This document shows, one piece after another, positions 14,515 to 24,827 of a stretch of DNA of 64,000 nucleotides. The stretch is from Guyparkeria hydrothermalis (lineage in GTDB: Bacteria > Pseudomonadota > Gammaproteobacteria > Halothiobacillales > Halothiobacillaceae), in NCBI RefSeq assembly GCF_023555375.1, contig NZ_JAJSEE010000004.1, forward strand, positions 62,001 to 126,000, in the 5' to 3' direction. Every line of letters begins with the position of its first letter. Positions within the stretch are counted from its first letter, which is position 1. Made by a program: the position numbers and the translations under genes. The notes under the pieces were generated by a model, which did not search any database, was not told the DNA's origin, and saw only the letters and a program-made list of their open reading frames with translations.

Positions 14515-16182
<1,668 letters not shown>

Positions 16183-16452
16183 GCACTCTCCGTGGTTGGA
16201 CTTCGGGTCGCGTGACGCCATGACACCCGGTCGATGGCGCGCAGCGGCAACAATAATCCATCTCGGCGCCTGACGGCGAGTCGGCCGCTCGGTAATCCCT
16301 CGACCGATCGATCACGGGGGCTCACGAGCGCGGACACGTCACACAAACCAACACCCTCGCCGATCGATCCGGACGAGGGTGTTGCCGCAAGCGGGCAATC
16401 CGCCAATGAGCGATTCGGGGCCTCCGTTCCAGCGGCGAGCCCCATGGCGGGA

Positions 16453-20997: not shown

Positions 20998-21957
20998 ATG
21001 GAACGAAGGCAGTTTCTGATCGCCGGCGGTCTCGTCCCCTTCGCCGCCCTGCTGGGCTGTGACGGCCGCGAGCCGCTCTTGCGTGTCTCCGGGATCACCT
21101 GGGTCGGTTACGAGCCCCTGTTTCTGGCCCGCACGCTCGATCTCCTCCCGCCCGATCACATCCGGCTGATCGAATCCCCCTCGAATACCAACAGTCTGAT
21201 GCAACTGGCCTCCGGCGAGGTCGAGGCCGCCACGCTCACGCTGGACGAGTTCATTCTTGCCCGCGCCGGCGGCATTCCGGTGCGCGTGGCCCTGGTGTTC
21301 GATACCTCCGAGGGCGCCGACGTGGTCATGGCCCGTCCCGGCATCGACCGACTCGAGCACCTGGCGGGACGACGTGTCGGCGTGGAGGAAACGGCCGCCG
21401 GCGCCCTGATGCTGCGAAAGTCACTCGAAGCCGCCGGCCTCGAACCCGAGGACGTCACGCGGGTGGCCGTCATCGGCGGCGGCCAGGTCGACGCTTACCG
21501 GAATGGCGAGATCGATGCGGTCATCAGCTACGAGCCCTTCGCCTCGCGACTCGAGGCCCTGGGCGCCACCCGGCTCTACGACAGCAGCGCCTTCCCGGGA
21601 CTGATCGTCGACGTCCTCGCCGTCAGCGAGCGGGCGATCGGCCGGCAGCCCAAGGCGCTGGCCGAGCTGGTGTCGGCCTACTTCGAGGCATTGGCCGTGG
21701 TGAAATCGAGCCCCGGACGTGCCCACCGCCTGATGGCACCGCGATTGGGGCTCTCGATCGACGAGACGGCACGCGCCTACGAGGGGATCGTCCTGCTGGG
21801 CGTCGAGGACAATCACGCCTGGCTCGACCCGCCGGCTAGCCGACTTACCCAGGCGACCCAGGCGGTCGCCGAGATCATGCAGGCCAACGCGCTGATCGAC
21901 CAGGTGCCGACCCTGTCCGACATCGCCACGGCGCGCTTTCTGCCGGAGGCCCCATGA
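20998..21957 (+). CDS. NMT1/THI5-like substrate-binding lipoprotein, probable ligand sensor
   Basis: A protein of 319 residues. The signal MERRQFLIAGGLVPFAALLGC ends in a good lipobox. The rest is a periplasmic binding fold of the NMT1/THI5/SsuA kind (TWVGYEPLFLARTLDLL, SNTNSLMQLASGEVEAATLTLDEF, RVGVEETAAGALMLRKSLE, GEIDAVISYEPFASRL). Such proteins usually feed nitrate-, sulfonate- or pyrimidine-type ABC importers. Here no ABC permease or ATPase is adjacent. Its TGA instead overlaps the ATG of a membrane GGDEF-EAL protein, so it probably presents a ligand to that sensor. The start at 20998 has an AGGGAGG site upstream. Confidence 0.87.
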   Translation: MERRQFLIAGGLVPFAALLGCDGREPLLRVSGITWVGYEPLFLARTLDLLPPDHIRLIESPSNTNSLMQLASGEVEAATLTLDEFILARAGGIPVRVALVFDTSEGADVVMARPGIDRLEHLAGRRVGVEETAAGALMLRKSLEAAGLEPEDVTRVAVIGGGQVDAYRNGEIDAVISYEPFASRLEALGATRLYDSSAFPGLIVDVLAVSERAIGRQPKALAELVSAYFEALAVVKSSPGRAHRLMAPRLGLSIDETARAYEGIVLLGVEDNHAWLDPPASRLTQATQAVAEIMQANALIDQVPTLSDIATARFLPEAP

Positions 21958-24827
21958 CCCTGCCGCGCCTGTCACTGCGCCTGATGGTCCCGCTGGGCCT
22001 GGCCCTGCTGTTCCTGCTGATCACCGCCGTGTCGCTGATCAATGGCATCCACAATCGCTCGGGGATCTTCGTCGCCGATTCCAGCCAGCGCCTGCTGCGC
22101 TACACCACCGAAATCGCGCGCACCATCGAACAGGGCGGGCTCGACAATCGCGGCCTGCTTGACGCACGGGTCAGCAGCATCCTGAGCGACCCGCGCGTCG
22201 ACATGCTGATCGCGGTCGGACCGGACCGCGAGGTACTGGTCGCGCCGCAACGGACCTGGCGCGGCGAGCCGGTCGACAGGCTGTTCACCGGTCTCGACCC
22301 GGACTCCTTCACCGACCGGCAGGACGAGCGCCTACCCTACCTCGAGCACCTCGAGGAAGGGCGCACGATCCGGGCGCTGCAATCCTTCGAGTTGCCGGGC
22401 CTGTCCGACCGACCGCGTTCGGAGAGCCGTGGCGTGGTCTGCGTGCGCATGGACCTGACCGCCGAGCTGGCGCGGATCCGCAACGAGGCGATCCTCGCCC
22501 GCCTGCCCGAGGCCGGCGTGATGCTGTTGATCATCCTGCTGACCGCCTGGGTGCTCGACAGCCAGATCACCCGCCCGCTTGGACGGTTGCGTACCGCGGC
22601 CATGCGCCTGCGGCACGGTGATCACGACGTACGGCTACCCGAGCGCGGCTGCAGCGAGATCGCCGAGGTCGCCGAGGGCTTCAACGCCATGACGCGCGCC
22701 ATCGCCGAGGCGCGCGACCAGCTGGTCAGAAGCGAGCGGCGCCTGGCGGTCACCCTCGACTCGATCGGCGACGGACTGATCGCCACCGACCTCGACGGTC
22801 GCGTGACCCTGATGAACCCGGTTGCCGAACGGCTGACGGGCTGGTCGCGCGAGGAGGCGGTTGGCCAGCCGATCGAGGCGGTGTTCGTGATCTGTCATGC
22901 CGATGACGACCGACCGGTCGCCATCCCCATCCGCCGCGTGCTCAGCGAAGGCACCCTCGTGGGACTGGCCAACCACACCGTGCTTACCGACCGCCACGGC
23001 CAACGCCACCACATCGCCGACAGCGCCGCCCCCATCCAGCAGGAGGACGGCTCGCTGGTGGGCGTGGTTCTGGTCTTTCACGACATGAGCGCGGAGTACC
23101 AGCTGCGCGAGGCACTGGCCGAAAGCGAGCAGCACTTCCGTACGCTTGCCGACAACGGCCAGGCGCTGATCTGGACCGCCGACATCGAGGGCCAGCGCGA
23201 CTACGTCAACCGCCCCTGGCTCACCTTCACCGGGCTGGCGCGCGACGAGGCGCTCGGCGAACAGTGGCACCATGCCGTGCATCCGGACGACCTGCCCGGC
23301 CTGCGTCAGGTGCTCGCGTCGGCCTACGAGCGGCGCGTGTCCTTCACCCGGGAATACCGGCTGCGCCATCGCAGTGGGGAATACCGGTGGTTGCTGGCCA
23401 AGGGCACGCCGCGCTTCAACAGCCGCGGCGAGTTCATCGGCTTCATGGGCCAGTGCATCGATGTCACGGCGGACAAGGAGACCGCGGCCCAGCTCGAACG
23501 GCTCGCCTACCACGATGGCCTGACCGATCTGCCCAACCGCGCCCTGCTGCTCGACCGGGTCGACCAGGCGATCCGGCAGCGCAAGCGTCATGGCGGGGTC
23601 GGTGCCCTGTTCTTCGTCGATCTCGACGAGTTCAAGCAGATCAACGACCTGTACGGCCATGCCCGTGGCGATCAGGTGTTGATGGAGGTCTCCCGTCGGC
23701 TGACCGGGCTGGTGCGGGACACGGACACGGTTGCCCGCCTGGGCGGGGACGAGTTCCTGGTGCTGGTCCCCGAGATGGCAGGCCACGTCGACGACGCCCG
23801 CCGCTCGGCGCTCGCGCTGGCCGACAAGCTCCGTCATGCCATGGAGCAGCCATTCGAATTCGAGGGATTTCGGCACCTGGCAACCGCAAGCGTCGGCCTG
23901 ACGCTGTTTGCCGGCAAGGTGGGCAACGCCGAGGAACTGGTACGCGAGGCCGACATCGCCATGTACCAGGCCAAGCGGGCGGGACGAAACAACCTGGTCA
24001 ACTTCGAGTCGGGCATGGTCGAGTCGGTGACCCGCCGCTACCGGCTGGAGCAGGAGCTAAAGCAGGCCCTCGATCGCGGCGAGTTCGAACTGCACCTGCA
24101 GTCGCAGTTCGATCGCGACGAGCGGCTGATCGGCGCCGAGGTGCTGCTGCGCTGGCGCCATCCCGTGCGCGGGCTGGTCTCGCCAGCGGAGTTCATCCCG
24201 GTGGCCGAGGAATCCGGCCAGATTATCGCCATCGGCGAATGGGTGCTGAGCGAGGCCTGCCACCTACTGCACGGGCTCGAGCACTCCACGCCGCCCGGCC
24301 AGCGGGTGCCGACCATCTCGGTGAACGTCAGTCCGCGCCAGTTCCGCACGCCCGATTTCGTCGACCGTGTCCGCGAGACGATCGAGCAGACCGGTATCGA
24401 CCCCTCGCACCTGATGATCGAGATCACCGAGAACATGCTGGTCAGCCACGCCTCGGACGCCATTGCCCGCATGCGTGCGCTCGCCGCGCTGGGCCTGGCC
24501 TTTTCCATCGACGACTTCGGCACCGGTTACTCGTCGTTCGCCTACCTCAAGCGCCTGCCCTTGAGCGAGATCAAGCTCGACAAGAGCTTTGTCGACGACG
24601 TGCCCGGCACCCCGGGCGACACCGCGATGGTCGAGGCGATCCTGGCCATGGCCTCGCGTCTCGGCATCGACGTGGTGGCCGAGGGCGTCGAGACCTGCGA
24701 GCAGTTCGACTACCTCAAGGAAAACGACTGCAGCCGGTTCCAGGGCTTCTGCTTCGCGCGCCCGGTGCCGGCACGCCAGTGGGTCGACGAGCGGCTCGAG
24801 GCGATGGAAAAGCGCCCGTCGTACTGA
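21954..24827 (+). CDS. Membrane HAMP-PAS-PAS-GGDEF-EAL c-di-GMP sensor
   Basis: A protein of 957 residues. A first membrane helix lies at about 8-28, a periplasmic region at about 30-180, a second helix at LPEAGVMLLIILLTAWVL, and then a HAMP linker (SQITRPLGRLRTAAMRLRHGD). A PAS domain starts near 255 (VTLDSIGDGLIATDLDG). A second PAS/PAC starts near 385 (HFRTLADNGQALIWTAD). GGDEF is intact (RLGGDEFLVLVPE). In the EAL domain the signature is EVLLRW instead of EALLRW, and DDFGTG, KLDKSF and EGVE are present. Both activities are therefore plausible. It is coupled by a 4-nt overlap to the binding lipoprotein gene, which probably supplies its periplasmic signal. Confidence 0.94.
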   Translation: MTLPRLSLRLMVPLGLALLFLLITAVSLINGIHNRSGIFVADSSQRLLRYTTEIARTIEQGGLDNRGLLDARVSSILSDPRVDMLIAVGPDREVLVAPQRTWRGEPVDRLFTGLDPDSFTDRQDERLPYLEHLEEGRTIRALQSFELPGLSDRPRSESRGVVCVRMDLTAELARIRNEAILARLPEAGVMLLIILLTAWVLDSQITRPLGRLRTAAMRLRHGDHDVRLPERGCSEIAEVAEGFNAMTRAIAEARDQLVRSERRLAVTLDSIGDGLIATDLDGRVTLMNPVAERLTGWSREEAVGQPIEAVFVICHADDDRPVAIPIRRVLSEGTLVGLANHTVLTDRHGQRHHIADSAAPIQQEDGSLVGVVLVFHDMSAEYQLREALAESEQHFRTLADNGQALIWTADIEGQRDYVNRPWLTFTGLARDEALGEQWHHAVHPDDLPGLRQVLASAYERRVSFTREYRLRHRSGEYRWLLAKGTPRFNSRGEFIGFMGQCIDVTADKETAAQLERLAYHDGLTDLPNRALLLDRVDQAIRQRKRHGGVGALFFVDLDEFKQINDLYGHARGDQVLMEVSRRLTGLVRDTDTVARLGGDEFLVLVPEMAGHVDDARRSALALADKLRHAMEQPFEFEGFRHLATASVGLTLFAGKVGNAEELVREADIAMYQAKRAGRNNLVNFESGMVESVTRRYRLEQELKQALDRGEFELHLQSQFDRDERLIGAEVLLRWRHPVRGLVSPAEFIPVAEESGQIIAIGEWVLSEACHLLHGLEHSTPPGQRVPTISVNVSPRQFRTPDFVDRVRETIEQTGIDPSHLMIEITENMLVSHASDAIARMRALAALGLAFSIDDFGTGYSSFAYLKRLPLSEIKLDKSFVDDVPGTPGDTAMVEAILAMASRLGIDVVAEGVETCEQFDYLKENDCSRFQGFCFARPVPARQWVDERLEAMEKRPSY

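Follow-up and report, generated by a model that had tools for sequence, protein, structure and literature searches.

We found that a lipoprotein of the NMT1 family encoded in a 64,000-nucleotide (nt) stretch of the Guyparkeria hydrothermalis genome (contig NZ_JAJSEE010000004.1, positions 62,001 to 126,000; hereafter the window) is, as judged from sequence comparisons, most likely the partner of a membrane receptor and not part of a transporter. The lipoprotein gene (20998..21957) is followed by the gene of a HAMP-PAS-PAS-GGDEF-EAL receptor (21954..24827), both on the forward strand, as are all features of the pair described below. The pair is real and conserved, occurs much more widely than was assumed in an initial annotation made from the letters of the window alone, and is a case of the known principle of a binding protein coupled to a receptor. 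The family to which the lipoprotein belongs appears to be large, nearly always paired with a membrane receptor rather than an uptake transporter, and undescribed; in a literature search with limited coverage of subscription papers, we found neither a description of this lipoprotein–receptor family nor any work joining NMT1 with GGDEF. The lipoprotein probably serves as a dedicated periplasmic co-receptor, by which a captured small molecule would set the cellular cyclic diguanylate (c-di-GMP) through the receptor of the overlapping gene.

The relatives of the lipoprotein were collected with a profile of 18 lipoproteins, all encoded adjacent to a receptor, which matched 85 of 370 gammaproteobacterial genomes at an E value of 1e-30 or better. 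For 127 binding-protein open reading frames (ORFs), same-strand genes lying −250 to +450 nt after them were classified with home-made profiles. Among the 70 ORFs scoring at least 205 bits, 62 preceded a receptor with a called output domain and 5 a receptor with an uncalled one, whereas two (L132 and L134) preceded neither type of gene and one (L061) preceded genes of an ATP-binding cassette (ABC) transporter. The 57 ORFs at 100–205 bits were distributed differently: ABC genes followed 42 of them, a receptor gene followed 2, and 13 were followed by neither. Of another seven matches, which were weaker (L234–L240) and kept apart from these counts, four had ABC genes nearby and three had neither type; one further match (G005:C1:263797) was left out of the neighbourhood counts. 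The 205-bit line was set after the result was known, and the tree of the binding proteins is independent of it. This tree, calculated by a quick method from 128 rows with Escherichia coli TauA and SsuA added and the short row L178 left out, contained a split with a Shimodaira–Hasegawa-like approximate likelihood ratio (SH-aLRT) support of 96, although long branches, and uneven composition in some rows, drew warnings from the program. On one side, hereafter the sensory side, were 69 proteins (67 adjacent to a receptor and 2 to neither), and on the other 59 proteins (45 linked to ABC genes, including TauA and SsuA, 12 to neither, and 2 adjacent to a receptor).

In a second test, the profile was applied to 397 Pseudomonadota genomes, a few of which had already been used, and the 40 best-scoring previously unseen matches, derived from 39 genomes, were taken. 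The script assigned 36 of them as receptor-adjacent, three (L294–L296) as preceding a receptor with an uncalled output, and one (L270) as preceding neither. Inspection of L270 revealed a Cache-HAMP-kinase receptor directly downstream, which had escaped the gap rule because of an overlong ORF call. A receptor thus adjoins all 40 of the newly drawn proteins, none of which precedes ABC genes. In the enlarged tree, all 40 fell on the sensory side, which then comprised 109 rows (67 + 40 + 2), and L270 was the nearest relative outside the genus, with a kinase instead of GGDEF-EAL. The initial annotation had named orthologues residing mostly in ABC transporter operons as the finding that would speak against a sensory role; the opposite distribution was seen, 67 of 69 proteins in the first tree and 40 of 40 in the second set lying beside a receptor. 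The two sides also differ in the lipobox, whose Cys column is occupied by Cys in 92% of the 109 sensory-side proteins and rarely in the ABC relatives; searched by pattern, a lipobox was present in 85 of the 109 versus 2 of 43 ABC-linked proteins.

Several points weigh against the assignment of the whole branch to sensing. Since 18 of the 70 best rows come from one genus, the independent number of pairs is smaller than the counts, and the collection leans towards receptor-adjacent proteins because the profile was built from 18 such proteins, a bias that the tree and the newly drawn genomes answer in part. Moreover, L132 and L134 lie on the sensory side with neither a receptor nor an ABC neighbour, and the receptor-adjacent L156 and L173 fall on the ABC side.

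Conservation of the pair, which had been proposed earlier as a check, was found both within the genus and far beyond it. A search of 96 genomes, including that of the host, gave a lipoprotein match in 35. An orthologue with 67–82% identity occurs in 8 of the 10 other genomes of the genus, one of the two lacking it being only 64% complete, and an overlapping receptor gene follows at all 8 loci (9 of 9 with the window). The 4-nt overlap is kept at every genus locus once the start calls are corrected, three loci having read −139 nt because the ORF caller placed the start 45 codons too early. Genes for an ABC permease or ATPase do not adjoin the pair, in agreement with the initial annotation. The closest ABC ATPase ORF found (14515..16221, reverse strand) lies upstream at a distance of about 4.7 kb and, by eye, encodes a tandem-ATPase ABC protein of another kind, resembling a peptide transporter; an ABC ATPase ORF is similarly placed near most of the orthologous loci.

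The lipoprotein gene begins with the ATG at 20998 and its stop codon ends at 21957, giving a protein of 319 residues that matches PF13379 (NMT1_2) with 60.6 bits (cut-off, 24.7) and PF09084 (NMT1/THI5) with 56.1 bits (cut-off, 20.5); the remaining Pfam match, Phosphonate-bd, was sub-threshold. Its signal peptide (20998..21060) has an RR-x-F-L start and the lipobox ALLGC ending in the conserved Cys21. The structural model, with a predicted local distance difference test score (pLDDT) of 85.8, indicates a type-2 periplasmic binding protein fold, the closest solved folds being TauA (6ssy; Z 31.6, root-mean-square deviation (rmsd) 2.4 over 285 residues) and SsuA (Z 31.4). A plasmid search for named pairs returned 72 records with a top identity of 35.9%; most among the matches listed either carried the annotation of an ABC substrate-binding protein or had none.

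The receptor gene starts with the ATG at 21954 and ends at 24827, encoding 957 residues. Hydropathy places transmembrane segments at residues 11–29 (21984..22040) and 179–197 (22488..22544), enclosing a 149-residue loop that forms a Cache-like periplasmic ectodomain (residues 30–178; 22041..22487). These are followed by HAMP (residues 204–250; 22563..22703), a PAS domain (264–378; 22743..23087), a second PAS domain matched by TIGR00229 (389–514; 23118..23495), GGDEF (518–680; 23505..23993), and EAL (700–937; 24051..24764). The family, the overlap, the domain order and the membrane topology given in the initial annotation were thereby reproduced by the coordinates, Pfam, NCBIfam, and hydropathy. 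The GGDEF motif, the RxxD inhibitory site, and the EAL metal-binding and catalytic motifs (EVL, N, E, DDFGTG, K, E, and Q) are intact (residues 588–601, 729, 791, 823, 853, 873, 909, and 930), so that both cyclase and phosphodiesterase activities are plausible from the sequence.

The ectodomain is homologous across receptors of different output and apparently has no Pfam family of its own. Fifty receptors lack a PhnD match, and in 47 of these the loop is 130–180 residues long. When a profile was built from kinase-partner ectodomains, it detected all 23 GGDEF-EAL partners (9 of the genus included) and all 7 GGDEF partners; the reverse profile detected 13 of 14 kinases, and alignment of the genus ectodomains with those of the kinase partners by hhalign gave an E value of 6e-19. 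When a pooled model was run against all ORFs of at least 150 residues at the loci, it recovered 47 of the 50 receptors, the same 47 from which it had been built, and matched two further ORFs (E 5.6e-7 and 0.02); reversed sequences gave no match. Pfam gave no family match for the window ectodomain at an E value of 0.1, and at most 4 of 43 ectodomain members matched any one family (CHASE8; best E 0.002). The AlphaFold model of the window ectodomain (pLDDT 83.5) resembles WalK (4ywz; Z 11.8, rmsd 3.2, 133 residues) and CitA (2j80; Z 11.1, rmsd 3.6, 117 residues), and LuxQ was among its Foldseek matches (E 2.8e-3).

The output domains of these receptors vary far more than their ectodomains. By output, the 107 pairs comprise 50 with c-di-GMP domains, 49 with kinases, and 8 for which no output was called. 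Mapped onto the tree of the binding proteins, the output class requires a minimum of 19 changes (99 labelled rows), whereas the ectodomain type, fused to PhnD or not, requires 3 (5 rows left out). These results suggest that the lipoprotein and the ectodomain form the working unit, to which the outputs seem to be attached exchangeably. Distances between binding proteins correlated with those between ectodomains (r 0.73 for 38 kinase pairs and 0.53 for 25 GGDEF pairs), but also with those between output domains (0.54 and 0.51, respectively), and the near equality in the GGDEF set means that these correlations add little. A third output class was seen once in the Pfam scan, which covered some of the partner receptors: at L126:2843-4525, the partner that comes after a sensory lipoprotein is a Cache-HAMP receptor ending in a SpoIIE-type phosphatase domain.

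In the proposed mechanism, the lipoprotein would close on its small-molecule ligand in the periplasm, and this ligand-dependent form would dock on the Cache-like ectodomain of the receptor. The resulting movement would pass through the second transmembrane segment and HAMP to the PAS domains and reset the balance between synthesis by GGDEF and breakdown by EAL, so that a chemical outside the cell would set c-di-GMP. This proposal is drawn from the conserved pair, the division of the tree between receptor-linked and ABC-linked proteins, the ectodomain shared across outputs, and the intact catalytic motifs; we infer the physical docking, the membrane tethering, and the direction of the effect. 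Alternatively, the Cache domain might sense a ligand of its own, with the lipoprotein acting as a modulator (e.g. a chaperone or antagonist) or the two reading different signals. Cache domains of the CitA type, found among the fold matches, bind ligands directly, and a PhnD-type binding domain is carried within the receptor itself in 24 of the 107 pairs. Furthermore, when 370 genomes were searched with the ectodomain and the matches were paired by hand with binding-protein positions, 34 of 38 strong matches (E 5.6e-18 or better) lay beside a sensory binding protein, whereas 4 (L223–L226) had no NMT1 protein nearby, as was also the case for all 7 that were looked at of 22 weaker matches. Some ectodomains may therefore act alone, a point against the co-receptor role. 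Nevertheless, the binding protein tracks the ectodomain type far better than the output, and its distances correlate with those of the ectodomain, with the reservation given above for the output domains; we thus regard a self-sufficient Cache sensor as unlikely, and a co-receptor role of the lipoprotein remains the preferred explanation.

As to the ligand, the 109 sensory-side proteins were compared column by column with 43 ABC-linked relatives. Common to both sets are W35 (W or Y in the ABC set), G37, T81, D/E84, D102 (N in 9% of the sensory set), S104, G106, D108, P180, S196, P200, and D205, most of which are located in the model at strand ends or helix starts and would thus face the ligand, as is usual for this fold. 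They include the motif T81-L-D-E84 (21238..21249), at a strand end and helix start on the presumed pocket face, and D102-x-S-x-G-x-D108 (21301..21321). The latter was absent from all 30 general NMT1 loci examined, many of which are fused to larger proteins and some weakly aligned, and TauA and SsuA lack most of the shared pocket-face residues. The signature of D-x-S-x-G-x-D, D/E84, and D205, all present in the window lipoprotein, was derived in this analysis and has no published definition. It led to the guess that the compound handled by the ABC relatives is cationic and resembles guanidine or urea, and 29 of the 43 ABC-linked loci were scanned with Rfam to check this. In 15 of the 29, a guanidine-I riboswitch was located just before the binding-protein gene; these include 5 of 5 loci in the L061 clade and 9 of 9 in the L079 clade, and guanidine-II elements occurred elsewhere in some ABC-linked loci. 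L079 exceeds the cut-off of TIGR03427 (544 versus 333.9 bits), which the window lipoprotein does not reach (79.4 bits). Proteins of this type share with it W/Y35, T81, D/E84, D-x-S-x-G-x-D, S196, P200, and D205, but precede ABC permease and ATPase genes and mostly lack a lipobox. Import of guanidine by ABC transporters under guanidine riboswitches is described for several bacteria in a review (PMC12186494) from whose text the terms 'histidine kinase' and 'c-di-GMP' are absent. At L061:5605-10815 and L164:4489-9580, genes for a creatininase-family enzyme and glutamine synthetase follow the ABC transporter genes. L164 belongs to the third ABC clade; the L061 operon stands under one guanidine-I riboswitch with another after it, an arrangement that may represent a little-studied guanidine route.

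Judged by the signature that both sets have in common on the presumed pocket face, the ligand may be a compound of the guanidine type (guanidinium, methylguanidine, or a urea-like molecule) or a close analogue; we hold this tentative candidate at somewhat less than an even chance, and a guanidine-type signal read into c-di-GMP is our best guess. The following observations tell against it. Of the 15 loci in the third ABC clade, a single one has guanidine-I just upstream. Guanidine riboswitches were found neither at 9 sensory loci nor in the window, and none of classes I–III was found in the host genome, the absences of classes II and III being weaker because only part of the candidates were scored (150 of 857 and 150 of 925, respectively). 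The sensory proteins differ from the ABC set at positions 82–84 (LDE versus mostly N-x-D) and 107, and the signature includes hinge positions that may be structural. Among the 370 genomes, sensory and ABC-type proteins co-occurred in 6 versus 4.8 expected (p 0.60), that is, with no excess, in lists made by hand in which one of the six, G005, was counted as ABC without a neighbour check.

The initial annotation had suggested a pyrimidine or a sulfonate, and sulfonate, taurine, or pyrimidine would indeed be in keeping with TauA and SsuA as the nearest solved folds, with the broad SsuA_fam model as the top NCBIfam match (94.9 bits), and with a host that we presume to be a sulfur oxidiser. However, the SsuA_fam cut-off (163.5) and that of the taurine model (304.25, against 42.1 bits) were missed, and the conserved acidic signature is absent from TauA and SsuA and present in relatives that often stand under guanidine riboswitches. 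Such ligands are therefore poorly supported and, in our estimation, quite improbable. Pyrroloquinoline quinone was also considered, as PqqT (9b1u) was the top phmmer match, and was rejected; PqqT has other residues at D102, S104, and D108, and the lipoprotein profile favours TauA and SsuA over it.

NMT1 proteins are mostly transport subunits, and an NMT1-type match in the same genome (G000:C4:216296, L081) has a permease and an ATPase nearby; even so, it is highly improbable that the lipoprotein acts in transport, as a scavenging or orphan subunit served by an ABC permease encoded elsewhere, and lies before the receptor only for operonic convenience, given that a receptor with exchanged outputs adjoins 107 of the 109 sensory-side proteins and that their lipobox Cys is rare in ABC relatives.

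The proposed co-receptor role resembles that of LuxP-LuxQ and TorT-TorS, in which the binding protein acts on the periplasmic part of the sensor; LuxP and TorT belong to binding-protein families other than NMT1, while LuxQ recurs among the fold matches of the window ectodomain. Unlike the genes of SsuA and TauA, that of the window lipoprotein has no permease or ATPase in its operon. The analogy with NspS-MbaA drawn in the initial annotation holds as a way of working and fails as a membership: NspS is a PotD-type polyamine protein, whereas the window lipoprotein is of the NMT1 type with no PotD-type Pfam match. According to PMC9993111, that system likewise has overlapping genes, with a periplasmic binding protein before a two-transmembrane HAMP-GGDEF-EAL receptor and an EVL-type EAL domain in MbaA of Vibrio cholerae; NspS that has bound norspermidine increases the cyclase activity of its receptor MbaA. 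It differs in that the periplasmic part of Sinorhizobium meliloti MbaA spans residues 24–256, compared with about 149 residues here, and in that MbaA has SGDEF without RxxD, compared with GGDEF, RxxD, and two additional PAS domains in the window receptor (PMC9993111). AioX-AioS, which senses arsenic oxyanions, is similar in that a dedicated binding protein is described as the likely activator of the membrane sensor of the adjacent gene (PMC5908839), and is distinguished by a PhnD-like binding protein, a kinase output, and a known ligand.

Binding proteins that switch receptors have so far been known one by one, whereas here an entire branch within a family of transport proteins appears to have been converted to sensing and connected repeatedly to different outputs. 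Through the ligand of the lipoprotein, it thereby becomes testable which signals are sensed by many orphan receptors with GGDEF, EAL, or kinase domains. It is possible, though on balance somewhat doubtful, that this widespread and apparently undescribed Pseudomonadota module is a protein receptor for extracellular guanidine or a close guanidino or urea compound, coupled here to c-di-GMP. In the literature searched, only riboswitch sensors were found described for guanidine, and a guanidine-like ligand would make the pair an outside sensor for a compound with widespread riboswitches and a debated natural role.

The host genome (2.43 Mb) contains 44 GGDEF and 22 EAL matches, which points to a dense c-di-GMP network. 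A paralogous lipoprotein with 38–43% identity occurs in nine genomes of the genus including that of the host (L043–L051) and precedes a receptor whose ectodomain is of the PhnD type, a GGDEF domain being visible in 8 of the 9 and the ninth (L045) being cut by the contig end. In the host copy (G000:C1:4555-8227, L043), the 40% identical NMT1 lipoprotein overlaps a PhnD-PAS-GGDEF receptor, so that a single signalling pair combines two types of binding protein. At L057:1182-7134, a lipoprotein, a HAMP-PAS-GGDEF-EAL receptor, and a PhnD-PAS-GGDEF receptor are encoded in succession, each receptor gene overlapping the preceding one by 4 nt. A kinase with a weak ectodomain match (L232:3355-4785) is preceded at 3 nt by a 287-residue ORF that is PhnD-like by eye and has no profile match. 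Finally, loci L320–L331, from several related genomes, have NMT1 domains embedded in open frames of roughly 600–1,570 residues, where they are probably fused to signalling domains.

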